DNA of 45,216 nucleotides from Armatimonadota bacterium (GTDB lineage: Bacteria; Armatimonadota; Hebobacteria; GCA-020354555; CP070648), in contig CP070648.1 in the NCBI GenBank assembly GCA_020354555.1, positions 4,266,478 through 4,311,693 on the forward strand, written 5' to 3'. The position numbers and the translations under genes were made by a program. Positions 15,348-45,216 of the stretch are shown one piece after another (positions within the stretch are counted from its first letter, which is position 1; the number at the start of each line of letters is the position of its first letter). Below the pieces are notes generated by a model. That model was not told the origin of the DNA. It ran no database searches and worked only from the letters and a program-made list of their open reading frames with translations.

Positions 15348-16904
15348 ATGGCAACCATCAACATAGACCCGGTCACTCGCATCGAAGGTCACCTCAAGGT
15401 CGAGGTCGTTACCGACGGGGGCGAGGTCAAGGAGGCCCGCTGTTCGGGTACCCTCTACCGCGGCTTCGAGCAGATCATGGTCGGCCGCGATCCTCTCGAC
15501 GCGCCCATCATCACGCAGCGCGTGTGCGGCGTGTGTCCCGCAGTGCACGCGACGGCGTCGGCCCAGGCGGTTGACGCGGCGCTCGGCATTGCCGGCAATG
15601 TGCCCGACAATGGGCGCATCATGCGCAACCTCATCCTCGGCGCCAACTACCTGCAGTCACACATCCTGCACTTCTACCATCTCGCCGCGCTCGACTACGT
15701 GGATGTGACCAAGGTCGCCCGGTATCGGGGCTCGGACCCGACGCTGCGGTCGGTCAAAGACTTCATCCGCCGCGGCGAACTCGCCCCGTTCGTGCCGCGC
15801 TACGAGGGAGACTACCGCCTCGCCGACAAGGTGGATCGCGAGGCGGTAGCTCATTACGTGCAGGCGCTGGACATGCGCCGCCGGGCGCACGAAATGCTCG
15901 CCGTCTTCGGCGGCAAGATGCCCCACCAGTGCGGCATCGTCGCCGGCGGCGTCACCTCCGGCCCCAACGCGGATCAGATCGCGGACTTCCTGTGGCGGCT
16001 CAACCAGATCCGCGGCTTCATAGACTCGGTGTACCTGCCGGATGTCATCGCCGTCGCCAAGGCGTACGCGGACTACGCCGAGATCGGGAACGGCGTCGGC
16101 CGTTGGCTCGCCTACGGCGTCTTCGACATGGGCACGACCGATGCCGGTGTCGCCGAGCGCGAGCGCTTCATGCCGCAGGGCGTGACCGACTCGTCGCTCC
16201 AGGTGGCCGATGTTGACGACCAGGCGGTCAGCGAAGAAGTGACCCGTTCGTGGTATCGTGACGGCGGCGCCGCGCACCCGTCCGCGGGCGAGACCGTGCC
16301 CGAGCCGGACAAGGCGGCGGGCTACAGCTGGCTCAAGGCGCCGCGCTACAACGGCAAGCCGTACGAGGTCGGCCCTGCCGCGCGCATGATCGTGGGCTAC
16401 ATCCGCGGCGTCGAGCCGATCAAATCCGCGGTCGAAGGCTTGCTGGCGAAGCTCGGCCTCAACGCGGGGGCGCTCAACTCGGTGTTGGGACGGCACGCCG
16501 CGCGCGCGCTCGAGGCCAAGCTCGTGGCCGACGAGATGGCGGAATGGGTGACACAGCTCAAGCCTGGCGAGCCCTTCTGCGCGGCACAGGATATTCCCGA
16601 GGCGGGCCAGGGCGCGGGCATGGCGGACGGCCCGCGCGGCGCCCTCGGGCATTGGGTCAGTCTGGACAACAGCCGGGTCAATCGCTATCAACTCGTCGTG
16701 CCGACGACGTGGAACGCCTCCCCGGCGGACGGCACCGGGCAGCCGGGGCCAATCGAGCAGGCGCTGTTGGGGACGAAGATTCGCGACGAGGCGAACCCGT
16801 TTGAGGTGGTCCGCATCGTACGCAGCTTCGATCCGTGCCTCGCCTGCGCGGTGCACCTGATCACGCCGGCCGGGGACGAATTGTCGAGATTACGTGTGCT
16901 GTGA
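15348..16904 (+). CDS. [NiFe] hydrogenase large subunit (group 1/2-like)
   Basis: A 518-residue catalytic subunit that splits or forms H2. NiFe ligands are Cys60 and Cys63 in RVCGVCPAVHA, and Cys497 and Cys500 in SFDPCLACAVH. A 15-residue tail after His503 is the expected cleavable C-terminal peptide, so the protein needs the endopeptidase encoded next. The ATG at 15348 gives MATINIDPVTRIEGHLKVEV, the family N-terminus. The DPCLACAVH ending resembles group 1 and 2 enzymes. No cytochrome b subunit or Tat-bearing partner is present, so a soluble cytoplasmic enzyme is inferred. Its electron partner could be the CooF-like protein or MetV/MetF. Confidence 0.95.
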   Translation: MATINIDPVTRIEGHLKVEVVTDGGEVKEARCSGTLYRGFEQIMVGRDPLDAPIITQRVCGVCPAVHATASAQAVDAALGIAGNVPDNGRIMRNLILGANYLQSHILHFYHLAALDYVDVTKVARYRGSDPTLRSVKDFIRRGELAPFVPRYEGDYRLADKVDREAVAHYVQALDMRRRAHEMLAVFGGKMPHQCGIVAGGVTSGPNADQIADFLWRLNQIRGFIDSVYLPDVIAVAKAYADYAEIGNGVGRWLAYGVFDMGTTDAGVAERERFMPQGVTDSSLQVADVDDQAVSEEVTRSWYRDGGAAHPSAGETVPEPDKAAGYSWLKAPRYNGKPYEVGPAARMIVGYIRGVEPIKSAVEGLLAKLGLNAGALNSVLGRHAARALEAKLVADEMAEWVTQLKPGEPFCAAQDIPEAGQGAGMADGPRGALGHWVSLDNSRVNRYQLVVPTTWNASPADGTGQPGPIEQALLGTKIRDEANPFEVVRIVRSFDPCLACAVHLITPAGDELSRLRVL

Positions 16905-29913: not shown

Positions 29914-31911
29914 ATGGCTAACGTCTTGACCGCGTGCCCGTTCTGCGGGTCGGGATGCAACTTGTATCTCAAGGTGGAGGATGGTCAGCTCACCGGCGTC
30001 CTCCCGAGTTCTTCTCACCCGACAAGCCGCGGAAAGCTGTGCATCCGCGGGTGGCATGCCCACGAGTTCGTCTCCCATCCCGAGCGCCTGCGCTCGCCCA
30101 TGGTTAGGAAGGGCGGCAAGTTCGAGCGCGTCTCGTGGGAGGAGGCGCTTTCGCTCGTCGCCGGCCGGCTGGGGCGGGGGGCGGACGTCGGCGTGGTGGG
30201 TTCGGCTCGCTGCGCCAACGAAGATAACTTCCTGCTGATGAAGCTCGCCCGATGTGTCTTGGGCACCGACAACGTGGATTTCTCGAGTCGCCCCCAGCGC
30301 ATCGCGGATCTGGCGGCGCTAAGCTCTACGCTGGGAGTCAACTGCGCCACCAATCCCGCGCCTGAACTCGCCGGCGCGGATGTCATCGTCCTCGTCGGCG
30401 CCGACCTCGTGCCCGAGATCACGATGATCGCGTCGCTCGTCTACGAGGCCGTCGCACGTGGCGCGAAGCTGGTCGTCATCTCTCCCGTACGCACCGAGCT
30501 TGCCGAACTCGCCGAGGTGTCACTCCAGCCGCGGCTGGGCACCGAGCCGGTGCTGCTGTGCGGATTGCTCAAATCGGTCGTGGATCAGGGGCTCATTGAC
30601 TCCTCGCTTCTCGACCGCGACTGGGACGCGTACGATCAGTTCGCCACCGACCTCTCGCAGTTCACGCTCGACAGCGTCGAGCAGCGCACCGGCGTCGCGG
30701 CGGACGCGATCACTCGCGCCGGGCGGCTCTACGGCGAGGCACGCAGGAGCGCGGTGCTCTACTCGTCGGGGCTCGCGCAGCACCCCGCCGCAGCCGCGAT
30801 GGCGACGGCACTCGCTGACCTCGTCGCCCTCACCAACCACCTCGGGCAGCCCTCGATGGGGCTCTACCCCCTGGCGCGGCAGAACAACTTTCAGGGCGCC
30901 CTCGATATGGGGCTCGCCCCGGGGATGCTGAGTGGTGGGCAGAGCCTGGGCAGCGCTGAGGTCCGCCAGAGATTCGAGCAGGCGTGGGGGTGCCGGCTGC
31001 CGGAGCCGGCGTGCAAGTCGCTCCCGGACATGCTCGGCGGCGTGAAGAGCCTGTACGTCATGGGCGCGGACATCGTGGGCGGTGCGGCGGATCCCGCGCA
31101 GGCGCGCCGCGACATCGAGGCGCTCGATCTCCTGGTCGTGCAGGAGCTGTTCATGACGCCGACCGCGGAACTCGCCGATGTCGTTCTGCCGGCTGCTGCG
31201 TACGCCGAGAAGGACGGCACCGCCACCTGCGCTGATCGGCGCGTCCAGCGACTGCGCAAGGCGGTTGATCCGCCCGGCGAGGCGCGCGCCGACTGGCAAA
31301 TCATCCAGGAGTTGGCCGGGCGGCTGGGCGCATCGTGGCGCTACGACTCTGCGGGCGCGATCTGGGCGGAAATCGCGTCGCTCACGCCCTCCTATGCCGA
31401 TATCACATACGACAAACTGGACGCCGGGTGGGGCGCATACTGGTCGAGCGCGAACGGCGCGGGGGAGCGGCTCCAGCTCAAAGGGCTGTCACTGCAGCCC
31501 GTGGAGTGCCCGCCGCCGCCGGTGACCGATGCGGAGCATCCGTTCCTGCTCGCCCTCGACCCGGCGGCCGAGCGATGGACGACGGACGCGACAACTCTCC
31601 ACTCCGATAACCTGCGCCGTGAGTATCAGATTGCGGCGGCGGATTTCCCTGCGGGGCACGTCGAGATGCACCCGGACGACGCCCAGGAACTCCAGTTGCG
31701 GCAGGGCTTCCGGGTCAAGCTGGCGTCGGCGCACGGCGAAGCCGAGCTTCAGCTCAAGCTCAGCTCCGACGTGTTGCCGCGCACGCTGGTCGTGCCGTAC
31801 CATCTTCGCGACACGGTACGCGATCTCTTCGGCGGCCCGGCGCCAGGCCAGGTCGAAGGCCACCTGGTGTACTCGCCCGTGGCAGTAAGCGTCGCCGCCG
31901 CCCAGCGGTAA
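29914..31911 (+). CDS. Formate dehydrogenase-like molybdopterin oxidoreductase lacking the Sec/Cys ligand
   Basis: A 665-residue protein of the formate dehydrogenase/NuoG superfamily. The N-terminal [4Fe-4S] site is CPFCGSGC plus KLCIRG (Cys8, Cys11, Cys15, Cys43). The MGD-binding domains resemble FdhF, e.g. SARCANEDNFLLMKLAR, GLYPLARQNNFQGALDMG, ELFMTPTAELADVVLPAAAYAEKDGT and a C-terminal molydopterin-dinucleotide-binding fold. Where FdhF has the metal-binding Sec followed by His (ARVUHGPS), this protein reads SRPQRIAD, with Gln128 and Arg129. No nearby Cys can replace the ligand, so ordinary formate oxidation is doubtful. An electron-transfer subunit as in NuoG, or another substrate, is possible. 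It heads an operon with HydB- and HydG-like subunits. AAGGG lies 8 nt before the ATG. Confidence 0.85.
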   Translation: MANVLTACPFCGSGCNLYLKVEDGQLTGVLPSSSHPTSRGKLCIRGWHAHEFVSHPERLRSPMVRKGGKFERVSWEEALSLVAGRLGRGADVGVVGSARCANEDNFLLMKLARCVLGTDNVDFSSRPQRIADLAALSSTLGVNCATNPAPELAGADVIVLVGADLVPEITMIASLVYEAVARGAKLVVISPVRTELAELAEVSLQPRLGTEPVLLCGLLKSVVDQGLIDSSLLDRDWDAYDQFATDLSQFTLDSVEQRTGVAADAITRAGRLYGEARRSAVLYSSGLAQHPAAAAMATALADLVALTNHLGQPSMGLYPLARQNNFQGALDMGLAPGMLSGGQSLGSAEVRQRFEQAWGCRLPEPACKSLPDMLGGVKSLYVMGADIVGGAADPAQARRDIEALDLLVVQELFMTPTAELADVVLPAAAYAEKDGTATCADRRVQRLRKAVDPPGEARADWQIIQELAGRLGASWRYDSAGAIWAEIASLTPSYADITYDKLDAGWGAYWSSANGAGERLQLKGLSLQPVECPPPPVTDAEHPFLLALDPAAERWTTDATTLHSDNLRREYQIAAADFPAGHVEMHPDDAQELQLRQGFRVKLASAHGEAELQLKLSSDVLPRTLVVPYHLRDTVRDLFGGPAPGQVEGHLVYSPVAVSVAAAQR

Positions 31912-31922: not shown

Positions 31923-32981
31923 ATGAGCCGAGCGCTGAAACTGCAGAAGAGCCGCTGGCCGGAATGGGTGGCGGCGCTCCAAAGGACCGCGGCGGTCATC
32001 GCTCCGGTCCGCCTGCACGGCGAAGACGTCGCCTTCGAGCGCATCACGTCGCCGAGCGAGATTACCCTCGACTTCGACAACACCGCCGATCCGCCCAAGC
32101 GGTTCCTGTTCCCCCAGGTCGAGCCGCTGCTCCGTTATCGGCGTAACGGCGGCTACGCGGTGGAGCCGGTCTACGATGAAGAGCCGCGGGTGTTCTTCGC
32201 CATTCGCTGTTGCGACGTCAGCGCCGTACGTTTCTTCGACTTCACTCTCGGCGCGCAGGACTTGCCCGACAGCTACTACACGGCCCGGCGCGCCGGCACC
32301 GCACTCATCGCCCTCGCCTGCCACGAGCCGTGCCAGTCCTGCTTCTGCGTGTGCGCAGATACCGGTCCTTTCTTGCCCCCGGGGGGCGGCTACGACATCC
32401 AACTGACCGATCTCGGCGGCGAACACTACCTGGCCGAAGTGGACACGGACAAGGGCGAGGCGCTGGTCGCCGCCGCCGCCGAGCTGTTCGCGCCGGCCTC
32501 GGACGACGACCTCGCGCAGCGCCGGGCGCTCGAGGAGGCGTCGGAGAAACGGTTCCCGTCCGAGCCGCGCCTCTACTTCGCGGCGTCCAGCCGCAAGGTT
32601 TCGCTCGATACGGCGGAAGCGGAGCTGTGGCAGCGCATGGCGCGGTGGTGCGTTGCCTGCGGCGGCTGCACCCACATCTGCCCGACCTGTTACTGCTTCA
32701 ACGTGACGGATGCCCAGCGCAACGGCGATGGCCTGCGCAGCCGGCGCTGGGACTCCTGCCAGTACGCCGGCCTCACTCGTGAGGCGTCGGGCCATAACCC
32801 GCGACCGGAGCAGTCGGATCGCGTCAAGCGGCGCGTGTTCCACAAGATCAGCTATCAGTATGTCGCGCGCGACGGCATGCAGGGCTGCGTCGGCTGCGGC
32901 CGCTGCACCCGCATCTGCCCCGGCCTGCGCCTCGGTCTCCCGGAGGTCGGCGAGGCCATCAGGAGAGCGGAATGGAAGTGA
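31923..32981 (+). CDS. HydB/AsrA-like 4Fe-4S dicluster electron-transfer subunit
   Basis: A 352-residue iron-sulfur protein of the family that includes sulfhydrogenase beta subunits (HydB) and anaerobic sulfite reductase subunit A. An N-terminal domain of about 220 residues contains FFAIRCCDVSAVRFFD and ACHEPCQSCFCVC. Two ferredoxin-type sites follow: CVACGGCTHICPTCYCF and CVGCGRCTRICPG near the C-terminus. It would pass electrons between the HydG-like flavoprotein and the molybdopterin subunit. It begins 11 bp after that gene and its stop overlaps the next start. Comparable FdhA-HydB-HydG sets are known in some Thermococcales. Confidence 0.85.
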   Translation: MSRALKLQKSRWPEWVAALQRTAAVIAPVRLHGEDVAFERITSPSEITLDFDNTADPPKRFLFPQVEPLLRYRRNGGYAVEPVYDEEPRVFFAIRCCDVSAVRFFDFTLGAQDLPDSYYTARRAGTALIALACHEPCQSCFCVCADTGPFLPPGGGYDIQLTDLGGEHYLAEVDTDKGEALVAAAAELFAPASDDDLAQRRALEEASEKRFPSEPRLYFAASSRKVSLDTAEAELWQRMARWCVACGGCTHICPTCYCFNVTDAQRNGDGLRSRRWDSCQYAGLTREASGHNPRPEQSDRVKRRVFHKISYQYVARDGMQGCVGCGRCTRICPGLRLGLPEVGEAIRRAEWK

Positions 32982-33811
32982 TGGAGAAGAGGCCCAACAT
33001 CTACCTCCCTGAGATCGCGCGCATCGTCGAAGTGCGCGACGAGACGCCCGACACCAAAACCTTCGTCTTTCGCTTCCGCGACGACCAGTTCCACGACTCG
33101 TTCGCCTGGCGTCCGGGGCAGTTCGTCGAGCTGTCCGTGTTCGGGCTCGGTGAAGCTCCGTTCGGATTCGCCTCGTCGCCGACGCGCAAGGAAAGCTTCG
33201 ACATCACCATCCGCGCGGTCGGCGCGCTCACCCGCGCGCTGCACGCCATGGGCACCGGCGACGAGGTCGGCATTCGCGGCCCGCTCGGCAATCATTTCCC
33301 GTTCGATGACGTGCAGGGCCGAAATATCCTCTTCATCGGCGGCGGCATCGGCCTGCCGCCGCTGCGTTCGCTCATCCACAACATGCTCGACGAGCGCGAC
33401 AAGTTCGGGGAAATCACGATTCTCTACGGCGCGCGCACCCCGACCGACCTCGTCTACAAAGAGGAACTCAAGGAGTGGGAGCAGCGCTCCGACGTCAAGT
33501 TCATCGTCACCGTTGACCGCTCCGAGCCGGGCTGGGAAGGCAACGTCGGCCTCGTGCCCATGCTGTTTTCCAAGGCGGACATCAAGCCGGACGGCACGAC
33601 CGCCTACATCTGCGGCCCGCCCGTGATGATCCGCTTCGTCATCCAGGACCTGGTGAGCATGGGGTTCGCGGAGGAGAACATCATCTCCACACTCGAGCGA
33701 CACATGAAGTGCGGCGTGGGGAAGTGCAATCACTGCTGCATCGGTCACAAGTACGTGTGCCGGGACGGCCCGGTGTTCAGCTACAAGCAGATGAAGGGGC
33801 TGCTGGAATAG
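32972..33811 (+). CDS. HydG/AsrB-like FAD/NAD(P)-binding oxidoreductase subunit
   Basis: A 279-residue flavoprotein of the ferredoxin reductase/PyrK-AsrB-HydG type. The FAD domain has FAWRPGQFVELSVFG and FGFASSPTR. The nucleotide domain has ILFIGGGIGLPPLRSLIHNM, ILYGARTPTDLVYKEEL and TAYICGPPVMIRFV. A C-terminal [2Fe-2S] site, CGVGKCNHCCIGHKYVC, completes the family pattern. It would oxidise or reduce NAD(P)H and exchange electrons with the HydB-like protein. AGGAGA is 6 nt from the ATG at 32972, which overlaps the upstream stop; ATG at 32981 is less well placed. NADH versus NADPH preference cannot be decided here. Confidence 0.9.
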   Translation: MEVMEKRPNIYLPEIARIVEVRDETPDTKTFVFRFRDDQFHDSFAWRPGQFVELSVFGLGEAPFGFASSPTRKESFDITIRAVGALTRALHAMGTGDEVGIRGPLGNHFPFDDVQGRNILFIGGGIGLPPLRSLIHNMLDERDKFGEITILYGARTPTDLVYKEELKEWEQRSDVKFIVTVDRSEPGWEGNVGLVPMLFSKADIKPDGTTAYICGPPVMIRFVIQDLVSMGFAEENIISTLERHMKCGVGKCNHCCIGHKYVCRDGPVFSYKQMKGLLE

Positions 33812-33844: not shown

Positions 33845-34372
33845 TTGGAGAGAGATGACGGAGCAGCCGGAATAGGGTCCGGCCTGATTCAGGATTTGCG
33901 GCGGGCAGTGCGCGGAGAAGCGCTCGTGGTCGGAGTCGGCAATCCTGACCGCGGCGATGACGGCGTCGGGCCGGCCGTAGTGGAGGAGTTGTGCGCCGCG
34001 GACGTCGAGACGCTCGACGTGGGGGACGCCCCGGAACGCTACCTGGGGCCGATGACGGAATCCGGCGCGCGGGTGTTGGTGTTCGTGGACGCGGTGGACT
34101 TCGGCCGCACGGCGGGGGAGGCGGTGCTGCTGGAGGAGGCCGACTTGCCGCAGCGGAGTTGCGTCACGCACCGCTCTTCGCTGGCGTTGGTGATGCGCTA
34201 CGCGCGTGAGCAGGCGCACCAGCGATCGGTGTTGATCGGAGTGCAGCCGGGCTCGATGGAGTTCGGACAGGGGCTCACACCGGCGGTGCAAGCGGCGGTC
34301 AAGGCGGTCGCCGCCGCTCTCAGCGAAGCGCTGGGTGGGCGGAGCCGCCGCCCGCAGCAAGAGTCCGGCTGA
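33845..34372 (+). CDS. [NiFe] hydrogenase maturation protease (HycI-like), 5' end uncertain
   Basis: A protein of about 160-175 residues with the family core LVVGVGNPDRGDDGVGPAVVEEL, LDVGDAPERY, VFVDAVDFG, THRSSLALVMRYA and VLIGVQPGSMEFGQG. It should trim the C-terminus of a hydrogenase large subunit, most likely the group 4 enzyme at 39849. The 5' end is odd: the only well-placed start (GGAGAG then ATG at 33855) is in another frame and hits a stop after six codons. The correct frame offers only TTG at 33845 without a good ribosome site. A frameshift between about 33870 and 33890, natural or an assembly error, is possible. Confidence 0.8.
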   Translation: MERDDGAAGIGSGLIQDLRRAVRGEALVVGVGNPDRGDDGVGPAVVEELCAADVETLDVGDAPERYLGPMTESGARVLVFVDAVDFGRTAGEAVLLEEADLPQRSCVTHRSSLALVMRYAREQAHQRSVLIGVQPGSMEFGQGLTPAVQAAVKAVAAALSEALGGRSRRPQQESG

Positions 34373-34437: not shown

Positions 34438-35922
34438 ATGCTAGCAATCCTAATCCTGTTGATTCTGCTGCCTGTGTTGAGCGCGGTCGTTATCCTCGCG
34501 CTGCGCCCGACGGCGGTGCGCGTCATCGCCGCCGCCACTGCCGCGGTCACCCTCGGGTTGGCCGTTTGGGCCGTGACTCAAGCGTTCCCGGGGACCGTCA
34601 GCTACGTCTTCGGGCAGATGCCGTGGCTGAAGGAGTTGGAGCCGGTCGGCCTCTTCGGCGTCCTGCTCGATCCTCTCGCGAGCCTCGCACTCATCGTCAT
34701 CATCGGCGTCGGCTTTCTCGCCGCGCTGTTCTCGACCGCCTACGTCAGTGACCGCAACCGCGAGCACGCGCTCGGCGAAGGCCAGCAGCGCTATTACTTC
34801 TGGCTGCTCCTGCTCATCGCCAGCATGGTCGGCGTCGCGCTCTCGCCGAACCTGCTGCAGCTCTTCATCTTCTGGGAACTCAGCACCCTCTGCTCCTGGG
34901 TGCTGATCGCGCACACCCAGGAGGAAAAGACGATGCGGGCGGGCTTCAAGGCCCTCATCGTGACGCACATCGGCGGCCTGTTCTACCTGGTAGCGCCGTT
35001 CATCCTGTTCATCGCCACCAGGTCGTTCGGGTTCACCGCTGCCGCCAAGCTCGCGCCCGGGCTGAAGAACCTGGTGTTCCTCTTCCTGCTCATCGCGGCA
35101 TGGGCGAAGGCAGCTCAGATCCCGTTCCACACCTGGCTCCCGGACGCTCACGCCGAGGCGCCGAGCCCGATCAGCGCCATGCTCTCCGGGGTCATCGTCA
35201 AGGTCGCGGTGTACGCCCTCGCGCGCATCGTCACCGCCTTCTACGTCTCGGGAACCGGCGTCGGCGTCGCCGCCGTCGGCCTGGTTGCGGCCATCATGGC
35301 GCTGGTGACCATGTTCATGGCACTTATCCTCTACTTCGCCCAGGACGACCTCAAGCGGCTGCTCGCCTACTCCACGATCGCCCACCTCAGCTTGATACTG
35401 CTGGGCATCGGCATGGGGATCCTCGGCTCCGGCCTGGCCTTTCGCGGGTCAGTTCTGCACATGATCACTCACGCGTTCGCCAAGACCACCCTTTTCCTGT
35501 GTGCAGGAGCCGTGGTGTACACGACCGGCACGCGCTCGATCAGCCAGATCAGCGGCCTGGGGCGCAAACTTCCGCTCGTCGGCGTGGCGTTCGTGATCGG
35601 CGTGCTGGCATTGACCGGGGTGCCGCCTCTGGGGTGCTTCTGGAGCAAGTTCTACCTGCTCGCGGGTACGCTCCAGGTCGCCGGAGGGCTGGGTCCCGTG
35701 ACTCTCGCCCTCGTGCTGCTGGAGAGCTTGGTTTCCTTCGCCTGGATGCTGAGGGTGACGCAGAAGGTCTTCCTCGGGGAACCCTCGGAGCCCGTGTTGG
35801 CGATTCAGGGCACCCCGCTGCCCGCGGCGATGACCGTAGTGCTGTCGGTGCTCATCGCCATGTGCGTTCTAGCGCCTGCCGTCGGGATCCCGCTGGTGGC
35901 GCGTATCCCGTATCTGCCCTAG
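34438..35922 (+). CDS. NuoL/MrpD/HyfB-like antiporter subunit, tandem copy 1
   Basis: A 494-residue polytopic membrane protein of the proton-translocating antiporter family shared by complex I, Mrp and group 4 hydrogenases. Pump residues are present: Glu147 in FIFWELSTLCSW, Lys in LIAAWAKAAQIPFHTWLPD and Lys in SGVIVKVAVYALAR. A later Lys is in CFWSKFYLL. About 13-14 hydrophobic spans are visible. The segment HAEAPSPISAMLSGVIVKV is of the NuoM/HyfB type. It is strongly similar along its whole length to the next gene (36117), including the ribosome site GAGGTGAGAGGATG, so the two arose by tandem duplication. It follows the maturation protease after 65 bp. Confidence 0.9.
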   Translation: MLAILILLILLPVLSAVVILALRPTAVRVIAAATAAVTLGLAVWAVTQAFPGTVSYVFGQMPWLKELEPVGLFGVLLDPLASLALIVIIGVGFLAALFSTAYVSDRNREHALGEGQQRYYFWLLLLIASMVGVALSPNLLQLFIFWELSTLCSWVLIAHTQEEKTMRAGFKALIVTHIGGLFYLVAPFILFIATRSFGFTAAAKLAPGLKNLVFLFLLIAAWAKAAQIPFHTWLPDAHAEAPSPISAMLSGVIVKVAVYALARIVTAFYVSGTGVGVAAVGLVAAIMALVTMFMALILYFAQDDLKRLLAYSTIAHLSLILLGIGMGILGSGLAFRGSVLHMITHAFAKTTLFLCAGAVVYTTGTRSISQISGLGRKLPLVGVAFVIGVLALTGVPPLGCFWSKFYLLAGTLQVAGGLGPVTLALVLLESLVSFAWMLRVTQKVFLGEPSEPVLAIQGTPLPAAMTVVLSVLIAMCVLAPAVGIPLVARIPYLP

Positions 35923-36116: not shown

Positions 36117-37586
36117 ATGCTCTCAATCCTTGTTCTGCTGATTCTGCTGCCGATACTCGGTGCCGCGGCCGTGGCCGGGCTGCGTCCGCGCGGCGTGCGC
36201 GCGGTTTCGACGGTCGCGGCGCTGGTCACTCTCGGCCTCGCCCTCTGGGCGGTCATCCGTGCCTATCCTGGGACGTTCGAGTCCGTCTTCGGACAGATGC
36301 CCTGGCTCAAGAGCCTCGAGCAGGTGGCCCTCTTCGGCGTCCTCATTGATCCGCTAAGCAGCCTCATGCTCGTCGTCATCACCGGCGTCGGCTTTCTGGT
36401 GGTGCTGTACTCGACCGCCTACCTGAGCGACCGCAACCGGGAGCACGACCTCAGCGAGGGCCAGGGCCGCTACTACTTCTGGCTCCTGCTCTTCATCGGC
36501 GCCATGGTCGGCGTCGCGCTGTCGCCCAACCTGTTGCAGTTGTTCATCTTCTGGGAGCTGACGACGCTGTGCTCGTGGGCCCTGATCTCCCACACCCACG
36601 AAGAGAAATCCCTGCGCGCGGGCTTCAAGGCCCTCATCGTGACGCACATCGGCGGCATCTTTTTTCTCGTCGCTCTGTTCGTTCTCTTCATCGTTACCAA
36701 GTCGTTCAGTTTCACGGCGCTCGCGGATCTCTCCCCGGGGCTGAGGAACCTGATGTTTGTATTCCTGCTCATCGCAGCGTGGGCCAAGGCGGCGCAGATA
36801 CCGTTCCACACCTGGCTCCCCGACGCGATGGAAGCGCCGACACCGATCAGCGCTTACCTCCACGCCGCGGCGATGGTCAAGGCTGGCGTCTACCTCATCG
36901 CGCGCGTCGTGTCGGCGAGTTGGTGCATACCGCCCGGGCTGGGTTTGCTGACCGCGATCCTGGCGCTGGTGACGATGTTCATGGCGCTCGCGCTCTACTT
37001 CGCGCAGGATGATCTGAAGCGGCTGCTCGCCTATTCGACGATCGCGCACCTCGGCTACGTCCTGTTGGGCATCGGCATGGGCATGCTCGGCTCGGAGCTG
37101 GCCTTCCGCGGCGGGGTCCTGCACATCATCAACCACGGGTTTGCGAAGAGCACGCTGTTCCTCGCCGCGGGCGCCGTGGCGTACGCCACGGGCACGCGCT
37201 CGATCAGCCGACTCGGCGGCCTGGGGCGCAAGTTGCCGCTGGTCGCCTTGGCCTTTCTCGTCGGCGTGCTGGCGGTGACGGGGGTGCCGCCGCTGGCGTG
37301 CTTCTGGAGCAAGTTCTACCTGCTCGTGGGCGCGTTCCAATTGGGGGGTGGGCTCGGCCCGGCGATCCTGGTGCTGGTGCTGCTTGAGAGTTTGATCTCG
37401 TTCGCCTGGATGCTTAGGGTGGCGCACAAGGTATTCCTCGGGCAACCCACGGAGCCCGTGCTGGCGGTGCCGGAGAATCCGCTGTCGGTGCAGATGACGA
37501 TCGTGTTGGGCGTGTTGCTCATTATGTGCGTGCTGGCGCCGCTCGTGGGCATCCCGCTGGTTGCGCACATTCCGTACATGCCGTAA
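36117..37586 (+). CDS. NuoL/MrpA/HyfB-like antiporter subunit, tandem copy 2
   Basis: A 489-residue paralogue of the previous gene, near-identical in long stretches (e.g. FGVL-DPL-SL, SPNLLQLFIFWEL, ALIVTHIGG, LLAYSTIAHL, GLGRKLPLV, FWSKFYLL). Pump residues Glu in FWELTTLC and Lys in AAWAKAAQIPFHTWLPD are kept. The TM7-TM8 segment differs: here it is MEAPTPISAYLHAAAMVKAGVYLIAR, here quoted by its parts MEAPTPISAYLH and AAMVKAGVYLIAR, which is the MrpA/NuoL subtype. The ribosome site GAGGTAAGAGGATG is duplicated with the gene. A 194-bp spacer without clear signals precedes it. Confidence 0.9.
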   Translation: MLSILVLLILLPILGAAAVAGLRPRGVRAVSTVAALVTLGLALWAVIRAYPGTFESVFGQMPWLKSLEQVALFGVLIDPLSSLMLVVITGVGFLVVLYSTAYLSDRNREHDLSEGQGRYYFWLLLFIGAMVGVALSPNLLQLFIFWELTTLCSWALISHTHEEKSLRAGFKALIVTHIGGIFFLVALFVLFIVTKSFSFTALADLSPGLRNLMFVFLLIAAWAKAAQIPFHTWLPDAMEAPTPISAYLHAAAMVKAGVYLIARVVSASWCIPPGLGLLTAILALVTMFMALALYFAQDDLKRLLAYSTIAHLGYVLLGIGMGMLGSELAFRGGVLHIINHGFAKSTLFLAAGAVAYATGTRSISRLGGLGRKLPLVALAFLVGVLAVTGVPPLACFWSKFYLLVGAFQLGGGLGPAILVLVLLESLISFAWMLRVAHKVFLGQPTEPVLAVPENPLSVQMTIVLGVLLIMCVLAPLVGIPLVAHIPYMP

Positions 37587-37588
37587 GC

Positions 37589-37677
37589 AAGGCGGCGCGG
37601 CGCGCCGCTCCGAAACGCGCCGGAGAGCGCGTCAAGGCGGCGCCGAGCGCCGCTCCGGAACGCGGGGTAGGCGCGTC
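37589..37677. repeat. Tandem 45/44-bp direct repeat before the third antiporter gene
   Basis: Two adjacent copies, 37589-37633 and 37634-37677, both beginning AAGGCGGCGC and ending GCGCGTC with CGCCGCTCCG in the middle. They differ at a few positions and by a one-base gap. Each copy contains a short GC hairpin. They fill the gap between antiporter copy 2 and the gene at 37693. Confidence 0.7.
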
Positions 37678-37692
37678 AATGGAGACAGGCTG

Positions 37693-39738
37693 ATGTTATC
37701 GGAGATACTGTCGTCGGAACTGATACTCTACGCCATCGGTATCCTGGCGGGCGGCGCCGTTGTGTCCGCCGCTATGTACCGCAATCGGCGCAGCGCGGGC
37801 TGGGCCGCGTTTCTGTTCGTCGCCCTCGCGACCCTCGTCGTGCTCAGCGTGGCGCTGCCGGTGCTCGTCAGCGGCCAGCCGGCGGAGTACGCGTCGGAGA
37901 TAGCCATCCCGGGGCTCGAAGCGAAGCTCGACCTCTCAGTTGACACGTTGAGCGCGCTCTTTCTACTCATGATCGTCATCGTATCCGCGGTGGCGACCTT
38001 CTACTCGATCGGCTACATGGATTCGTATCCGCAGGAGAACGTGGCGCGATACTACGGCCCCCTGCTCCTCTTCATCGGCGGCATGATCGGCGTGGTTTCC
38101 GTGTCCGACTGGTTCTTCTTCCTCGTGTTCTGGGAGTTCATGACGCTCGCCAGCTATTTCCTGGTGATCTTCGAACACGACAACCCGGTGAGTCTGCGCG
38201 CCGGCTTCAAGTACTTCCTGATCACCCATGTCGCCACCGGCCTCATGTTCGCCGCCGCCATCATCACGTGGCAGTCGGGCGCCGTGCGCGGGTTCGATTT
38301 CGCGACCTCCCAGCAGTCGCTGGCGACGGTGGCTGAGGCGCGGCCGTGGCTGCTCCACCTGGTGCTCGGATTGTGGTTCGTCGGCTTCGGCACCAAGGCG
38401 GGCATGTACCCGTTCGGCGACTGGCTGCCCGATGCCCACCCGGCCGCCCCCTCCAGCGTGAGCGCCATGCTCTCGGGCGTGATGATCAAGATCGGCGTCT
38501 ACGGCATCGCCCGCGTCTTCCTGTGGACCGCCTTCAGCATGCTCACCCGCGAGGCCGTCATCGCCTGGGGCATCGTGATCGCGACCTTCGGCGTCGCATC
38601 GGCGGTGGTGGGCAGCATCGCGGCGGTGCAGCAGAATGACTGCAAGCGCCTGCTTGCCTTCTCGAGCATCGGCCAGATGGGATACATCCTCATGGCCCTC
38701 GGCATGGGCCTCGCCTTCCTCCGGATCGCGCCGCTGTTCGGGGCGCTCGCGCTGCTTGCCGCTTTCTATCACATGGTCAACGACGCAGCCTTCAAGTCGC
38801 TCCTCTTCTTGAACGCCGGCAGCGTCGTCTATCACACCGGCAGCCGCGACCTCAACCGGATCGGGGGCCTCTCCGGCGTCATGCCCGTCGCCGCGGCGAC
38901 CGCCGTGATCGGCGCGCTCGCCCTCGCCGGGCTGCCGCCGCTCAACGGCTTCGTCAGCAAGTGGATACTCTACCAGACCGCCATCATCGGCGGCCTCAAC
39001 TACGCCGTCTTCGTCGTGCTCGGGTTGATCGCGCTGTTCGTCAGCGTCGTCAGCCTCGCCTACGCGATGAAGTTCGTCGGCGTCGCGTTCATGGGCAAAG
39101 AGTCGCCGACGAAGTCGGCGCACGCGGGGCCGCTGCCGTGGACGATGAATGCGGCGCAGGTCGTGCTGGCGCTGATCTGCGTCGGCCTCGGCCTGGCGCC
39201 GGTGTGGGCGTCGCACGCGATTTACGGCGTCCTTCGCGCGGGCCCCGTGGCGCTGGCGGAGTCGGGGCAGGTCCTGGCCGGCACCGGCGTGACTCTGGCG
39301 CTCGCGCCCGGCGGGCTGGCGACCGCGGCGTGGAACCCGGTGCTGCTCGCGGTGCTGTTCGGCGGGCTCATGGTGGTGGCGTACGGCGTGATGCGCAGCG
39401 CGGGTGCGCCGGTGCGCGAAGTCGGATCCTGGTACTGCGGTGAGGAGCATGCGGACGAACTCGTGCGCTTCCGTGCGCAAGGGCTCTTCGCGCCCTTCAA
39501 CCGCGCGTTCTCCGGCATCTACCCGACCATCCGCGTGCCCCGCGTCAGCTTCCCGCGCATCGTGGAGCGCGTGTTCGATCTCGACGGGTGGCTGTACGGG
39601 CCGCTGATCCGAGGCGGGGGTAAGCTCGCCGAGCGTTTGAGCCGCACTCATATCGGTATCCCGCAGATGTACATGCTGTGGCAGGTGGTCGGGATGATCG
39701 TTGTGCTGGCCCTGCTGTTCCTGCTGCTGCGGGTATAG
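37693..39738 (+). CDS. HyfB-like large antiporter subunit of the group 4 hydrogenase
   Basis: A 681-residue membrane protein, longer than the two preceding copies because of a C-terminal extension of about 180 residues. It matches the HycC/HyfB type: FLVFWEFMTLASYFLVIFEHDN (channel Glu in WEF) is seen in pieces, then FVGFGTKAGMYPFGDWLPDAHPA, SAMLSGVMIKIGVYGIAR, SIGQMGYILMALG and LPPLNGFVSKW. The extension contains EVGSWYCGEE, FRAQGLFAPF and a last transmembrane helix (VVGMIVVLALLFLLL). The ATG at 37693 is taken; the in-frame extension to 37561 is repeat DNA. It links to the catalytic large subunit 110 bp further on. Confidence 0.9.
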   Translation: MLSEILSSELILYAIGILAGGAVVSAAMYRNRRSAGWAAFLFVALATLVVLSVALPVLVSGQPAEYASEIAIPGLEAKLDLSVDTLSALFLLMIVIVSAVATFYSIGYMDSYPQENVARYYGPLLLFIGGMIGVVSVSDWFFFLVFWEFMTLASYFLVIFEHDNPVSLRAGFKYFLITHVATGLMFAAAIITWQSGAVRGFDFATSQQSLATVAEARPWLLHLVLGLWFVGFGTKAGMYPFGDWLPDAHPAAPSSVSAMLSGVMIKIGVYGIARVFLWTAFSMLTREAVIAWGIVIATFGVASAVVGSIAAVQQNDCKRLLAFSSIGQMGYILMALGMGLAFLRIAPLFGALALLAAFYHMVNDAAFKSLLFLNAGSVVYHTGSRDLNRIGGLSGVMPVAAATAVIGALALAGLPPLNGFVSKWILYQTAIIGGLNYAVFVVLGLIALFVSVVSLAYAMKFVGVAFMGKESPTKSAHAGPLPWTMNAAQVVLALICVGLGLAPVWASHAIYGVLRAGPVALAESGQVLAGTGVTLALAPGGLATAAWNPVLLAVLFGGLMVVAYGVMRSAGAPVREVGSWYCGEEHADELVRFRAQGLFAPFNRAFSGIYPTIRVPRVSFPRIVERVFDLDGWLYGPLIRGGGKLAERLSRTHIGIPQMYMLWQVVGMIVVLALLFLLLRV

Positions 39739-39848
39739 TTAATGTAGTTAAGATAATCCCGGCGCGGCCGCTGCGTCGGCGCGCAGGGCGAGGAACGTCT
39801 GCGTGCGGGTAATGAAAGCGGCCGCGGTTGCGGGAGGAAACGGAAGAG

Positions 39849-41561
39849 ATGTACTTCTCCAATAACGGGCTGCTGACACAGATCAAGCAGCGCGCGGGAG
39901 GCGCGTTCGTCGAGGCTTACGAACCGGTCGAGCGCAAGCTGTACGTCAAGCTGCGCAAGGACGCCGTGAGGCCGATGGCGGACTACCTCTTCAATGAGGC
40001 GGGCGCGCGCTTTCTCATCACCTCCGGCACTGACCGCCGCGATGCCCTCGGCACGTTCGAGATCAACCATATCTTCGCGATGGACGAGGAACACGGTTAC
40101 GTGTGCCTGCTCGCCGAGGTGCACCCCGATGACGCGAAGATCGACTCCATCACGCCGGTGGTCCCAGGAGCGGGCTGGTCGGAGCGGGAGTTTCGCGATG
40201 TCATCGGCGTCGACCCCGTGGGGCACCCTGACCCCAGGCGGCTGGTGCTCGCCGACGACTGGCCGGAAGGTGTGCACCCGCTGCGCAAGGACTTGCCGTA
40301 TGACTACAAGCCGCCCGCCGCGCCGGAGGCCAGGATGCAGTTCAAGGAGGCGCCGGAAGGCACGACGGTGCTCCCCATCGGCCCCTTCTTCCCCGTGCTC
40401 GAGGAGCCGGCGCAGCTCCGCTTGTTCGTGGACGGGGAGCGGGTTGTCGGTTGCGACTACCGCGGGTTCTACAACCATCGCGGCATCGAGAAGCTGGGCG
40501 ACACCGTCCTCAACTACAATGAGATCCCGTTCCTCGCCGAGCGCATCTGCGGCATCTGTGGGTTTATCCACTCCAGTTGCTACTGCCAGGCGGTGGAGGA
40601 CGCGGCGGGGATCGAAGCGCCGATTCGCGCCCGCTACATCCGCACCATCATGCTCGAGATGGAGCGCGTCCACTCCCACCTGCTGTGGCTCGGCATCGCC
40701 ACCCACATCATCGGCTTCGACACCCTGCTCATGCAGTCGTGGCGCATTCGCGAGCCCATCATGTGGCTCAGCGAGGAGATCTCGGGCAACCGCAAGACCT
40801 ACGGCATGAACATCATCGGCGGCGTCCGCCGCGACATCCCCGAGGAGGTGCACCCCAAGATCCTCGCGGTCCTCGATAAGATCGAGAAGGAAACGCTCGC
40901 CGTCGCCGACGCGCTGCCCGGCGACTCGACGCTCATGTTGCGGCTGCGCAACGTCGGGCCGCTCACCCACGACCACGCGCGCGCGATGTGCGCGGTGGGG
41001 CCGACGGTGCGCGGCTCGGGCCATCCGCGCGATGTCCGCGTAGATCACCCCTACGCCGCGTATGCGGAGATCGAGCCCAAGGTCTGCTACCACGACGAGG
41101 GCGACGTCCTCGCGCGCACCCTGGTGCGAGTGGAGGAGACCTTCGAGTCCATTCGCCAGATCCGCAAGGGACTCGCCGACATGCCCGATGGACCGATCGT
41201 CACCCCCATCGAGGACGAGATACCGGCAGGGCGCGAGGGCATCAGCATGGTTGAAGCGCCGCGCGGCGAGGCCATCCACTACGTGCTCACCGGCGAGAAT
41301 AACCGCCCCGAGCGGTGGCGTGTGCGTGCGCCGACGTATCCCAACCTGCAGTGCATCCCGGCCATGGTGCAGGGCCAGGAGGTCGCCGACGTCCCCATCA
41401 CCCTGGGCAGCATTGACCCCTGCTTCTCCTGCACCGAGCGGGTCGAGGTGGTTGACGTCAACAACGAGCGGAAGAGAATCTACACCAACGACGAACTCGT
41501 GGCCCTCTCGCGCGAGAAGGCGTGCGCTGAGCGCAGTCGACGGGGCCACCGGAGGGACTAA
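39849..41561 (+). CDS. Group 4 [NiFe] hydrogenase large subunit (HycE/HyfG-like)
   Basis: A 570-residue fusion of a NuoC-like N-terminal domain (about 1-165, with GWSEREFRDVIGVDPVGHPDPRR in part) and a NuoD-like catalytic domain. All four nickel ligands are kept: Cys234 and Cys237 in ERICGICGF, and Cys525 and Cys528 in DPCFSCTER. It is therefore a true hydrogenase subunit rather than NuoCD of complex I. The 42-residue segment after the last Cys resembles the HycE/HyfG tail that is processed by HycI, matching the protease gene at 33845. GGAGGAAA lies upstream, and the ATG at 39849 starts MYFSNNGLLTQIKQRAG. The stop directly abuts the next start. Confidence 0.93.
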   Translation: MYFSNNGLLTQIKQRAGGAFVEAYEPVERKLYVKLRKDAVRPMADYLFNEAGARFLITSGTDRRDALGTFEINHIFAMDEEHGYVCLLAEVHPDDAKIDSITPVVPGAGWSEREFRDVIGVDPVGHPDPRRLVLADDWPEGVHPLRKDLPYDYKPPAAPEARMQFKEAPEGTTVLPIGPFFPVLEEPAQLRLFVDGERVVGCDYRGFYNHRGIEKLGDTVLNYNEIPFLAERICGICGFIHSSCYCQAVEDAAGIEAPIRARYIRTIMLEMERVHSHLLWLGIATHIIGFDTLLMQSWRIREPIMWLSEEISGNRKTYGMNIIGGVRRDIPEEVHPKILAVLDKIEKETLAVADALPGDSTLMLRLRNVGPLTHDHARAMCAVGPTVRGSGHPRDVRVDHPYAAYAEIEPKVCYHDEGDVLARTLVRVEETFESIRQIRKGLADMPDGPIVTPIEDEIPAGREGISMVEAPRGEAIHYVLTGENNRPERWRVRAPTYPNLQCIPAMVQGQEVADVPITLGSIDPCFSCTERVEVVDVNNERKRIYTNDELVALSREKACAERSRRGHRRD

Positions 41562-42485
41562 ATGGCTCACGCGGTACTGGTGGGGATATTCCAGATACTG
41601 CTGGTGCTTCTGCTGTCGCCCCTGCTCGAGGGGGTGATCCGCAAGCTCAAGGCGCGGATCCACTCTCGCCAGGGGCCGCCGATTACCCAGCCCTACCTGG
41701 ACCTCATCAAGTTGCTCGGCAAGGAGGACCTGCGGCCCACGGGCGGCCTCGTCTTCCGCCTCGCGCCCATCGTCACCATGGCCGCGGTGCTCATGATCGC
41801 GCTGCTCATTCCGATGGGGGCCGGCGCGCCGATCGGCCAGTCAGCCGATCTCATCGTGCTGCTCTACGTCATGAGCATTGCCGCGGTCGGTATCATCGCG
41901 GCGGGCTTCGCGTCCGGCAGCCCCTACGCGTCACTCGGCGCGGGGCGCGAGATGATGATGGTGCTGACCACCGAGCCGGTGGTCGCGGTCGCCCTCATCG
42001 TCGCGGCGCTCAAGTCGGGGACGCTGATGCTCGACGGCATGGTCGGCTGGCAGCTCAGTCACCCGTGGCCGCTCACCGACCCCGTGGGACTGTCCATGCT
42101 GGTCGCGGGCGTCACCTTCTTCCTCGCGCTTCAGGCGCAGGTCGGCAAGTTGCCGTTCGACATCGCGGAGGCGGACCAGGAGATCATGGGCGGGCCGTTC
42201 GTCGAGTTGAGCGGCCCGCGGCTGGCGCTCATCAAGTGGTGCTTCCACATGCGCCTGCTGCTGTTCTCGGTGCTGTTGGTGCAGATCTTCGTGCCCTGGC
42301 CGGACCTCGGGCTGGCCGCGCTGAACGTCGTGATGACGCTGGTCAAGGCGTTCGTCGTGGTCGTCCTCGTCGGACTGATAGATGTCGTCAACCCGCGATT
42401 GCGCATTGACCAGTCAATGAGCTACTTCGCGCGGATCATCGTCGTCGCGCTGGTCGCCGTGGCGCTGACGGTGATCAAGGCGTGA
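41562..42485 (+). CDS. HyfC/HycD (NuoH-like) membrane subunit
   Basis: A 307-residue membrane protein of the complex I subunit 1 family, anchoring the hydrogenase catalytic domain. About eight hydrophobic spans are visible. Family landmarks are GVIRKLKARIHSRQGPPITQPYLDL near the N-terminus (quoted in part: RIHSRQGPPITQPY), LLGKEDL, SLGAGREMMMVLTTEP, LPFDIAEADQEIMGGP and a C-terminal RIDQSMSYFA. The loop with the acidic residues (DIAEADQEI) is the quinone/hydrogenase interface in relatives. It starts immediately after the large subunit stop with GGAGGG upstream. Confidence 0.92.
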   Translation: MAHAVLVGIFQILLVLLLSPLLEGVIRKLKARIHSRQGPPITQPYLDLIKLLGKEDLRPTGGLVFRLAPIVTMAAVLMIALLIPMGAGAPIGQSADLIVLLYVMSIAAVGIIAAGFASGSPYASLGAGREMMMVLTTEPVVAVALIVAALKSGTLMLDGMVGWQLSHPWPLTDPVGLSMLVAGVTFFLALQAQVGKLPFDIAEADQEIMGGPFVELSGPRLALIKWCFHMRLLLFSVLLVQIFVPWPDLGLAALNVVMTLVKAFVVVVLVGLIDVVNPRLRIDQSMSYFARIIVVALVAVALTVIKA

Positions 42486-42498: not shown

Positions 42499-42975
42499 AT
42501 GTTCCTGAGCAAGCTGAAGGAAGCGCTCATTTGCCTCAAGGCGGGCAAGGTGACCCTGCCGTACCCGCTGGTACCTATGGAGGCGCCCGAGGGGTTCCGC
42601 GGGCGGGTGGAGATCGACGTCAACAAGTGCATCGGCTGCGGCGGCTGCGCCGAGGTGTGCCCGACGCGGCTGATCAACATCTTCGACCTGTCGCAGGAGA
42701 CGCGCGTGCTCGAGTTCGAGTTGGAGCGCTGCGTGCACTGCGGGCGCTGCGAGGAAGTCTGCCCGGAGAACGCGATCACGCTCACCCGCGAGTTCGAGAC
42801 CGCGACGGCCGATAACATGCAACTGCGCATGCGCGCCGAGGTCTTCATGGCCACTTGCCAGCGCTGCGGGCGGTGTTACGTCCCGCCGACGGCGCTCGAC
42901 GAGATGCAGGTCACCGGCTTCCGTCCGCCGGCACCTGACGAGGAAGAGACAGCGGCGGCCGGGGCGGCCCAGTGA
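42499..42975 (+). CDS. HyfH/NuoI-like ferredoxin subunit
   Basis: A 158-residue iron-sulfur subunit with two [4Fe-4S] sites: CIGCGGCAEVCP (Cys44, 47, 50, 54) and CVHCGRCEEVCP (Cys78, 81, 84, 88). These carry electrons to the NiFe site. A further three-cysteine group CQRCGRC (Cys120, 123, 126) lies near the C-terminus, as in some HycF/HyfH proteins; it might bind a metal. The tail is Ala/Glu-rich. It begins 13 bp after the HyfC-like gene. The NuoB-like small subunit (HyfI) expected in such a complex is not in the window and may lie beyond the end. Confidence 0.92.
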   Translation: MFLSKLKEALICLKAGKVTLPYPLVPMEAPEGFRGRVEIDVNKCIGCGGCAEVCPTRLINIFDLSQETRVLEFELERCVHCGRCEEVCPENAITLTREFETATADNMQLRMRAEVFMATCQRCGRCYVPPTALDEMQVTGFRPPAPDEEETAAAGAAQ

Positions 42976-43034: not shown

Positions 43035-43703
43035 ATGTACAACGAAAGTCTGATTGGGACTTTGAGCCTGATAATGATTGCGACTTCGGTCAGCGCGGTG
43101 GAGGCGCGGAACCTGCGCGTCTCGGCGTTCGCGTATGCGGCGCAGGCGCTGCTCATCTGCGGGCTCATCCTGGCGTTCGCGGTGGGCAGCCGCAACGTCG
43201 CGCTCTACGGCTGGGCGGCGGTCGCATTCGGCACCAAGGTGGTGCTCACGCCATGGCTCCTGTTCGCGTACGTCCGCCGCACCACCGACCGCGAAGTGCG
43301 AGCCATCATCGGCTTCGGCCCCTCGGTCATCATCGCGGTGCTCATCTTGGTGAGCTTCTATAAGCTCACCCATACCTACGCCGACTTCATGGCGCCAACC
43401 ACCGCCGCGATGCACGGCGTGTTTCGCACCAATCTCGCCGTCGCGCTGACCGTGTTCGTCATCGGCATCTACGCCATTCTGTCCCGCCGCGACGCGATTA
43501 AGACCGTGGTCGGGCTCTGCCTGCTCGAAAACGCCGTGCACTTGAGCCTGGTGAGCCTGGCGCCCGGGATTCGCGAGACCGCGCTGATCGGTATCGCCAC
43601 CGAGGTCGTGCTCACGGTGTGGCTGCTGCTCTACATCATCTCCGCAATCCACCAGAAGTTCGGCTCGACCGATACGTTTAAGTTGTCGGAGCTGCACTGG
43701 TGA
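43035..43703 (+). CDS. HyfE-like (NuoK-related) membrane subunit
   Basis: A 222-residue membrane protein with about seven hydrophobic spans. It matches the hydrogenase-4 subunit E family, whose C-terminal half is NuoK-like; VVGLCLLENAVHLSLVSLAPG carries the conserved Glu of the proton path. The length is as expected for HyfE. It sits between the ferredoxin subunit and the last antiporter-like gene, the normal Hyf neighbourhood. A GGGAGA ribosome site precedes the ATG at 43035. The following 158-bp gap has a small hairpin GGCCCG-ATAC-CGGGCC (43821-43836) and nothing else I recognise. Confidence 0.88.
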   Translation: MYNESLIGTLSLIMIATSVSAVEARNLRVSAFAYAAQALLICGLILAFAVGSRNVALYGWAAVAFGTKVVLTPWLLFAYVRRTTDREVRAIIGFGPSVIIAVLILVSFYKLTHTYADFMAPTTAAMHGVFRTNLAVALTVFVIGIYAILSRRDAIKTVVGLCLLENAVHLSLVSLAPGIRETALIGIATEVVLTVWLLLYIISAIHQKFGSTDTFKLSELHW

Positions 43704-43861: not shown

Positions 43862-45216
43862 ATGCCCGATCACGTTGTGTCCATACTGCCTGCTCTGGTG
43901 TTTATCGTTCCCGCCCTATTCGGCGTCGCCGCATACTACGCGGGCGCCAAGATCGGCGTCGCAGCGCGCAACGCGGTCGTGCTCGTCGGCGCCTGCGCCA
44001 CCGCCGCGCTCGCGATCGGCATGCTCTACCAGATGTTTGCGTACGAGGCCGTGCTCACGACGTGGGGGGAGGAGTTGCTCGTTGACGGCCTGAGCATGGT
44101 CATGGTGTTGGTCATCAGCGGGGTCGGCCTGTTTGCCGCGGTTTACGCCATTCGCTACATGCGGCATCAGACCGCGATCCACTGGCGCGACATCACCGAG
44201 CAGCGCCTCAACGTCTTCTATCTCTTCCTCATGCTGTTCATCGCCACCATGCTGTGGGGCGTCGTCACCAACAACGTCATCATGCTCTACGTCGCGGTGG
44301 AGGCGACGACCATCGCGTCGGGGCTGCTCGTGGCGTTCTATTGGGATCGCCGCGGGCTCGAGGCGGGCTACAAGTACCTGATGCTGCTCACCACCGGCAT
44401 CACCTTCGCCCTCTTCGGCTGCGTGCTCATATACGCCTCCTCGACGTCCTACCTGGTCGGCTTCGACGCGCTCCTCATCAGCAAGATCAAACTCATCGCT
44501 GGGAAGTTTCCGCACAGCGTCGTCATTGCCATCTCGGCGGGGCTCATCGTCGGCTTCGGCACCAAGGCGGGCATCGCGCCGTTCCACCCCTGGCTCCCCG
44601 ACGCCCACGCCGAGGCGCCGAGCCCGGTCAGCGCGCTCCTCTCCGGCGTCATGATTAAGATGGCGGTGTACGCGCTCGCCCGCACGATCACGATTTTCTT
44701 CCCGGCGTGGCCGGCGCTCAAGGTCTTCCTCGTCGGCCTCGGCGCGTTCACCATGGTGCTCGGCATCGTCATGGCCATCGTGCAGACCGACATCAAACGC
44801 CTCCTCGCCTACAGCTCGGTGAGCCAGATGGGCTACATCGTCATGGCCTTCGGCATCGGCACCTACCTCGGGGTCTATGGCGCCATCTTCCACCTCATCA
44901 ACCACGGCATCTACAAGGCCTTGCTCTTCCTCGGCGCGGGCGCCATCATGTACAGCACCGGTATCCGCAGCCTGCACGACCTGGGTGGCCTCGGGCGCAA
45001 GATGCCGGTGACCTCGGCCTGCTTCTTCGTCGGCACCCTGGCGATCAGCGGGTTCCCGCTCTTCAACGGCTTCATGAGCAAGATCACCATCTTCCTCGCC
45101 GCGGCGCAAGCCCACATGTGGTGGGCCGCCATCATCGCCATCGCTACGGGAGTGCTGACCCTCGTCGTGATGGTGCACGCGGCGTATGCCATCTTCTGGG
45201 GACGGCCCAGGACGAG
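43862..45216 (+). CDS. HyfF/NuoM-like antiporter subunit, truncated by window end
   Basis: The first 451 codons of a membrane antiporter-like subunit are visible from the ATG at 43862 (GGGAG upstream); no stop is reached. It reads MPDHVVSILPALVFIVPALF and has the channel Glu in MLYVAVEATTIASGLLV. GFGTKAGIAPFHPWLPDAHAEAPSPVSALLSGVMIKMAVYALAR is recognisable in its parts GFGTKAGIAPFHPWLPD and SGVMIKMAVYALAR. Later come SVSQMGYIVMAFG, FNGFMSKITIFL and the helix ending in FWGRPRT. It resembles HyfF (hydrogenase-4 subunit F). Counting this gene, four antiporter-like subunits are encoded in the region. Confidence 0.92.
   Translation, partial: MPDHVVSILPALVFIVPALFGVAAYYAGAKIGVAARNAVVLVGACATAALAIGMLYQMFAYEAVLTTWGEELLVDGLSMVMVLVISGVGLFAAVYAIRYMRHQTAIHWRDITEQRLNVFYLFLMLFIATMLWGVVTNNVIMLYVAVEATTIASGLLVAFYWDRRGLEAGYKYLMLLTTGITFALFGCVLIYASSTSYLVGFDALLISKIKLIAGKFPHSVVIAISAGLIVGFGTKAGIAPFHPWLPDAHAEAPSPVSALLSGVMIKMAVYALARTITIFFPAWPALKVFLVGLGAFTMVLGIVMAIVQTDIKRLLAYSSVSQMGYIVMAFGIGTYLGVYGAIFHLINHGIYKALLFLGAGAIMYSTGIRSLHDLGGLGRKMPVTSACFFVGTLAISGFPLFNGFMSKITIFLAAAQAHMWWAAIIAIATGVLTLVVMVHAAYAIFWGRPRT

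Follow-up and report, generated by a model that had tools for sequence, protein, structure and literature searches.

A formate dehydrogenase-like protein lacking the metal ligand is encoded with an NAD(P)H-type module and a group-4 [NiFe] hydrogenase in Armatimonadota

Introduction

NuoG, a subunit of complex I, has the formate dehydrogenase (Fdh) fold but no Mo site and connects the NAD(P)H module of the complex with its proton-pumping membrane part, which is related to group-4 hydrogenases; how complex I came by a molybdoenzyme that lacks its metal has long been asked. StnC of the Sporomusa Nfn enzyme was annotated as a formate dehydrogenase and showed no formate activity when tested (PMC7483475), and the Fdh-like CISM protein DET0187 of Dehalococcoides has Ser in place of Sec/Cys and is thought to link a hydrogenase with another enzyme (PMC5736913). 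An Fdh combined with a group-4 hydrogenase constitutes formate hydrogenlyase (PMC2432063), Fdh3 of Thermococcus onnurineus is an Fdh with Fe-S and NAD(P)-binding subunits (PMC8965080), and a complex I-like enzyme without NuoEFG has been discussed (PMC11238625).

Here we report FdhL, an Fdh-alpha-like protein encoded in a 45,216-nucleotide stretch of the genome of an Armatimonadota bacterium (hereafter, the window), next to genes for HydB- and HydG-like subunits (HydBG) and a group-4 hydrogenase. FdhL resembles NuoG in having the Fdh fold without the metal ligand and, by gene order, in its place beside both kinds of module, whereas NuoG has extra N-terminal Fe-S domains and is partnered by NuoE/NuoF instead of HydB/HydG. 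In StnC and NfnABC a domain resembling NuoG is likewise part of a complex linked to NAD(P) (PMC7483475), but this is a soluble bifurcating transhydrogenase with a fused GltD-like domain and no hydrogenase. DET0187 is linked to the Hup hydrogenase and a reductive dehalogenase, whereas FdhL is encoded with HydBG and a group-4 hydrogenase presumed to pump protons. Formate hydrogenlyase (E. coli FHL, Thermococcus Fdh2-Mfh2) shares with the FdhL cluster an Fdh-type subunit and a group-4 hydrogenase, but its Fdh is catalytic (Sec/Cys) and it has no HydBG; loci of that form occur in the same phylum (L096, L098). Fdh3 and the HydB/HydG-linked Fdhs, which we found as sets of a Cys/Sec Fdh with HydB and HydG (L003, L062, L167, L232, L233), differ from FdhL in keeping the catalytic Cys-His-Arg and in having no hydrogenase. 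While ligand-less relay subunits with the Fdh fold are already known from NuoG, StnC and the Dehalococcoides CISM protein, our literature searches, which covered passages of papers, returned no account of such a subunit in a group-4 hydrogenase or of its combination with HydBG. The passages of PMC9469722 and of PMC10290634, the latter on acetogenic Armatimonadota, contain nothing on ligand loss.

Results

The features of FdhL and the genes that follow it in the window are given below.

29914..31911, + strand: FdhL, Fdh-alpha-like protein of 665 aa without metal ligand; one [4Fe-4S] site (C8, C11, C15, C43); starts with ATG
30295..30297, + strand: codon CAG for Gln128 at the Sec/Cys position, followed by the codon for Arg129 at the His position (by alignment)
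31923..32981, + strand: HydB-like subunit (Fer4_22, 4Fe-4S dicluster; sulfhydrogenase beta/AsrA type; domain and model matches)
32972..33811, + strand: HydG-like subunit (FAD, NAD(P) and 2Fe-2S domains; sulfhydrogenase gamma type; domain and model matches)
33845..34372, + strand: HycI-type hydrogenase maturation protease (TIGR00072 above cut-off; HycI domain PF01750)
34438..35922, + strand: HyfD-like proton-antiporter subunit, copy 1 (NF005097, 462.5 bits, cut-off 430)
36117..37586, + strand: HyfD-like proton-antiporter subunit, copy 2 (NF005097, 548.5 bits, cut-off 430)
37561..39738, + strand: HyfB-like antiporter subunit (open reading frame from TTG; the true start may be internal)
39828..41561, + strand: HycE/HyfG-like large subunit with both CxxC nickel motifs (RICGIC, DPCFSC)
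41562..42485, + strand: HyfC/NuoH-like membrane subunit (model match)
42499..42975, + strand: HyfH/NuoI-like 2x[4Fe-4S] subunit (model match)
43035..43703, + strand: HyfE/NuoK-like membrane subunit (Oxidored_q2; domain match)
43862..45216, + strand: HyfF-like antiporter subunit, running beyond the window into an N gap (L102:2339-3823)

Comparison of FdhL with five PDB formate dehydrogenase chains by phmmer placed Gln128 on the Sec/Cys ligand and Arg129 on the residue after it, with no gaps around position 128; in the PDB chains that next residue is His in three cases and Gln in two, both Bacillus ForC entries. Aligning 19 ligand-less with 28 Cys/Sec proteins in MAFFT gave the same placement. 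An earlier note on this DNA had claimed that Gln and Arg, with CAG and not TGA as the ligand codon, replace the ligand and the His while the [4Fe-4S] cysteines are kept, and both alignments and the presence of all four cysteines confirm this. A misalignment that hides the true Cys was rejected because the alignment is ungapped in all five PDB pairs and consistent across the 47 aligned proteins; a search for a Cys or Sec ligand after proper alignment found none, and Gln128 stays on the ligand position. Selenocysteine was also rejected, since position 128 is encoded by CAG and the genome's own top match to tRNA-Sec is a tRNA-Ser. One motif had been misread in the earlier note: the block quoted as GQNN-QGA-DMG reads LARQNNFQGALDMG (ARQNN, not GQNN) and has Ala321 where 28 of 28 compared Cys/Sec homologues have Arg, which we take to be R333 of FdhF. 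A third catalytic residue of FdhL is therefore missing too.

The best curated model for FdhL was that of the formate dehydrogenase alpha subunit (TIGR01591), at 491 bits and below its cut-off of 666.25, while the NuoG model (TIGR01973) scored 146.3 bits, below its cut-off of 470.05; FdhL is thus far closer to Fdh than to NuoG. Its Pfam domains are Fe4S4, molybdopterin and C-terminal dinucleotide-binding, and Molybdop_Fe4S4 begins at residue 3, with no NuoG-like N-terminal Fe-S domains ahead of the Fdh part. The AF2 model has the Fdh fold (pLDDT 78.7, pTM 0.79) and matched E. coli FdhH (1aa6, Z 42.0), NuoG of complex I (8e9h, Z 31.0) and NfnABC (9bov, Z 30.3). MGD-loop regions had low pLDDT in models of a ligand-less protein and of a Cys/Sec control alike. 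FdhL shares with NuoG the missing Mo ligand and, by gene order only, the coupling to a complex-I-like membrane arm.

The HydB/HydG pair has the FAD, NAD and Fe-S domains expected of the NAD(P) module of a group 3b hydrogenase. Both proteins fall below the equivalog cut-offs of their best curated models (HydB-like, 175.9 bits against 690; HydG-like, 276 against 395), so the nucleotide partner is a presumed one. An N gap just beyond the window interrupts the hydrogenase cluster, and the minus-strand open reading frame at 43916-45178 is the antisense of the HyfF-like gene. A hydrogenase small subunit with the proximal Fe-S motif is not encoded in the window, but a candidate lies elsewhere beside an N gap (G000:C1:530669, G000 being the window's genome); in the relatives L046 and L085 this gene is inside the cluster. 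N gaps split genes and part operon members at several places in the 4.88-Mb contig (4775111; 530669/L234; 16S pieces at 3736807 and 206379), which seems to be a gapped scaffold, and the absence of a gene from this genome is therefore weak evidence. Upstream of FdhL are the Wood-Ljungdahl genes CdhD, AcsE-like and CooC-like and, farther upstream, genes for formate-THF ligase, a CODH-type protein, MTHFR and a second [NiFe] hydrogenase, whose small and large subunits lie among the Wood-Ljungdahl genes at window positions 14393-16904. The FdhL-hydrogenase cluster also adjoins CdhD, AcsE and CooC-like genes in the distant relatives L085 and L086, and the linkage to Wood-Ljungdahl genes is therefore shared.

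The cluster was found in at least 19 of 291 phylum genomes, a lower bound because part of the phylum matches were read, and both ligand and His were missing in all 19. When a profile of the 19 ligand-less proteins was searched against the 291 genomes, those 19 came out on top and Cys-type Fdhs below them. Of 14 genomes searched from the class to which the window belongs, 10 carry the ligand-less protein; the exceptions are G002, G004, G006 and G013, the last of which (55% complete) has a Cys-type Fdh with HydBG. The earlier note had raised conservation of the Gln among homologues. This was not found: the ligand position is Q in 4 of the 19 phylum loci, Y in 9, D in 2, and E, H, R and A in 1 each. 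The His position is never His in these proteins, and the four Fe-S cysteines are kept in 19 of 19. In every one of these loci HydB, HydG and hydrogenase genes are present and adjoin, with the HydB-like gene next to FdhL. Among 31 Cys/Sec loci, by comparison, six had HydBG only, two had hydrogenase genes only and none had both, a zero weakened by the short flanks of many loci. The neighbour scan comprised 55 loci, of which two without the motif region were set aside together with L101, a nitrate-reductase-type protein whose Cys was missed by the search pattern. In other phyla, 100 loci were read from the top-scoring matches only; Sec was present in 61 of them, Cys in 33 and Tyr in 2, and the remaining 4 were members of other families. 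The two Tyr loci (L230:9876-12590 in G686 and L231:3219-5918 in G487) have neither HydBG nor hydrogenase genes; each encodes a 900-aa Fdh-like protein with Tyr for Cys, adjoined by NuoE-/NuoF-like genes and, judged by eye, apparently two methylenetetrahydrofolate reductase genes, and we regard them as a separate case.

We consider it likely, from these sequence comparisons, that FdhL is a former Fdh alpha subunit that does not oxidize formate, most likely does not bind the molybdopterin cofactor and joins, as wiring and scaffold, an NAD(P)H-oxidizing module to a group-4 [NiFe] hydrogenase that pumps protons, a place like that of NuoG in complex I. From gene content and order we infer a physical complex, the path of the electrons, the nucleotide used, the direction and the pumping as follows. 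Electrons from NAD(P)H would enter the FAD and 2Fe-2S of HydG, pass to the 4Fe-4S clusters of HydB and then to the single 4Fe-4S of FdhL, and would reach the NiFe site through HyfH and HyfI. Their flow would be coupled to the antiporter subunits, conserving energy, and the direction would be reversible and set by H2 pressure. It seems unlikely that the true electron input is ferredoxin, or an NAD(P)H/ferredoxin bifurcation, with FdhL as a docking partner. A dead NuoG/Fdh-like subunit does work in the bifurcating Stn enzyme (PMC7483475), and NfnABC is among the fold matches; however, the cluster has no NuoF-type bifurcating subunit, and HydG has both FAD and NAD-binding domains.

Retention of the cofactor site was scored on the columns that are near-invariant in the 28 Cys/Sec proteins. 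The ligand-less proteins keep 88-95% of these columns in the Fe-S domain and 37-51% in the ligand loop; in the C-terminal domain, whose near-invariant columns are presumably MGD-binding, the 13 proteins of the window's group keep 33% and the six of a Tyr subgroup 51%, and the pair formed by the window's protein and that of G001 keeps 31% of 26 columns. In the 13-member group, positions 549 and 558, which are Gly in Fdh, are each D/E in 12 of 13 proteins, and these acidic residues would repel an anionic cofactor. MoeA inserts the metal into the molybdopterin cofactor, and we used its gene as the single cofactor-gene marker. No MoeA match was found in six ligand-less genomes that are 97-100% complete (G018, G086, G230, G231, G237, G238), five of which belong to the Tyr subgroup and not to the window's. 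G086 has two matches to P0001 at E 1e-40, and each of the other five has just one, FdhL. MoeA was found in 11 of the 14 genomes with a read Cys-type Fdh motif (G001, G003, G005, G007, G010, G012, G022, G263, G264, G275, G276) and not in the other three (G008, G013 and G223; 86, 55 and 88% complete), so that a missing match need not mean that the gene is truly absent. FdhL probably works without a Mo/W cofactor in the six near-complete genomes lacking MoeA. MoeA is present in the ligand-less genomes G009, G011 and G236 and in the window's own, where cofactor loss therefore rests on the loss of the motifs; on that basis it is most likely for the window's FdhL too.

It is quite unlikely that FdhL still binds the molybdopterin cofactor with another protein ligand or none and has other chemistry, a reading most plausible for the Tyr subgroup. 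The six proteins of this subgroup keep the Arg equivalent and the DPR-like, GEN and H..TGT-M motifs and have a uniform Tyr-Asp at the Sec/Cys-His positions, but MoeA gave no match in five of their six genomes (97-99% complete), where FdhL is also the sole P0001 match at that threshold. The window's group lacks these motifs, and the ligand position varies among its orthologues. The window's protein has largely lost its cofactor-binding motifs and is for that reason unlikely to be an enzyme with other chemistry, one of two options offered by the earlier note. The other option, an electron-relay subunit of Fdh descent, is supported by the cluster of NAD(P)H module and group-4 hydrogenase, the variable ligand position, the invariant Fe-S cysteines and the six near-complete genomes without MoeA.

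One other molybdopterin-oxidoreductase match was found in the window's genome, an ordinary Fdh represented by its 3' half beside an N gap (G000:C1:4775111; L002), whose ligand position falls outside the assembled sequence. Seven class mates with the cluster have a separate Cys-type Fdh (G001, G003, G005, G007, G008, G010, G012); none was found in two further class mates with the cluster, G009 and G011 (80 and 74% complete). These comparisons indicate that FdhL is not the formate dehydrogenase of the cell, and the second Fdh and the seven class mates speak against the earlier suggestion that it occupies the position expected for an acetogen's own Fdh.

In the phylogenetic tree, which was built without the ligand loop and the C-terminal part and is unrooted with long branches, all 28 Cys/Sec proteins formed one clan (SH-aLRT 95.3, UFBoot 98) with the ligand-less ones outside it; branching among the latter was weakly supported. 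A single loss of the ligand is the simplest reading of this tree, though not a proven one. Between G000 and G001, dN/dS was 0.21 for FdhL, 0.16 for HydB, 0.14 for HydG, 0.16 for CdhD and 0.25 for HyfD copy 1; FdhL is under purifying selection, with a value near its neighbours' 0.14-0.25. The nearest relative of FdhL (71% identity), from a different genus, has Gln-Arg at the same place, which together with this dN/dS excludes a sequencing accident. That FdhL is a decaying pseudogene inside a working hydrogenase operon is very improbable: it diverges faster than HydB, HydG and CdhD, but its frame is open in 19 of 19 genomes, its Fe-S cysteines are invariant, and its dN/dS is far below 1 and similar to that of HyfD copy 1.

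Discussion

The lineage may have re-invented NuoG, an Fdh in a hydrogenase complex having shed metal, cofactor and substrate upon gain of an NAD(P)H module to become a hydrogen-linked analogue of complex I; we neither favor nor reject this scenario. Its presumed building blocks are extant in relatives, as Fdh with hydrogenase (L096, L098) and as Fdh with HydBG (L062, L003). A conversion similar to that of NuoG seems to have taken place separately here, and Cys/Sec and ligand-less forms coexist in one phylum, so that the order in which the ligand, the catalytic residues and the cofactor were lost can be compared and tested. There is a practical caution as well: genes like that of FdhL, which automated pipelines would label as formate dehydrogenase, are no basis for inferring formate use, even in an acetogen-like cluster.

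In G022, the gene for the group-4 large subunit (L053:1-1665, - strand) has an in-frame TGA at each of the two cysteines of its nickel motif 1 (RI-TGA-GI-TGA-GFIHS), these being the only stops in the frame. G022 has a tRNA-Sec, and this hydrogenase may be a [NiFeSe] enzyme with two selenocysteines in the first nickel motif.
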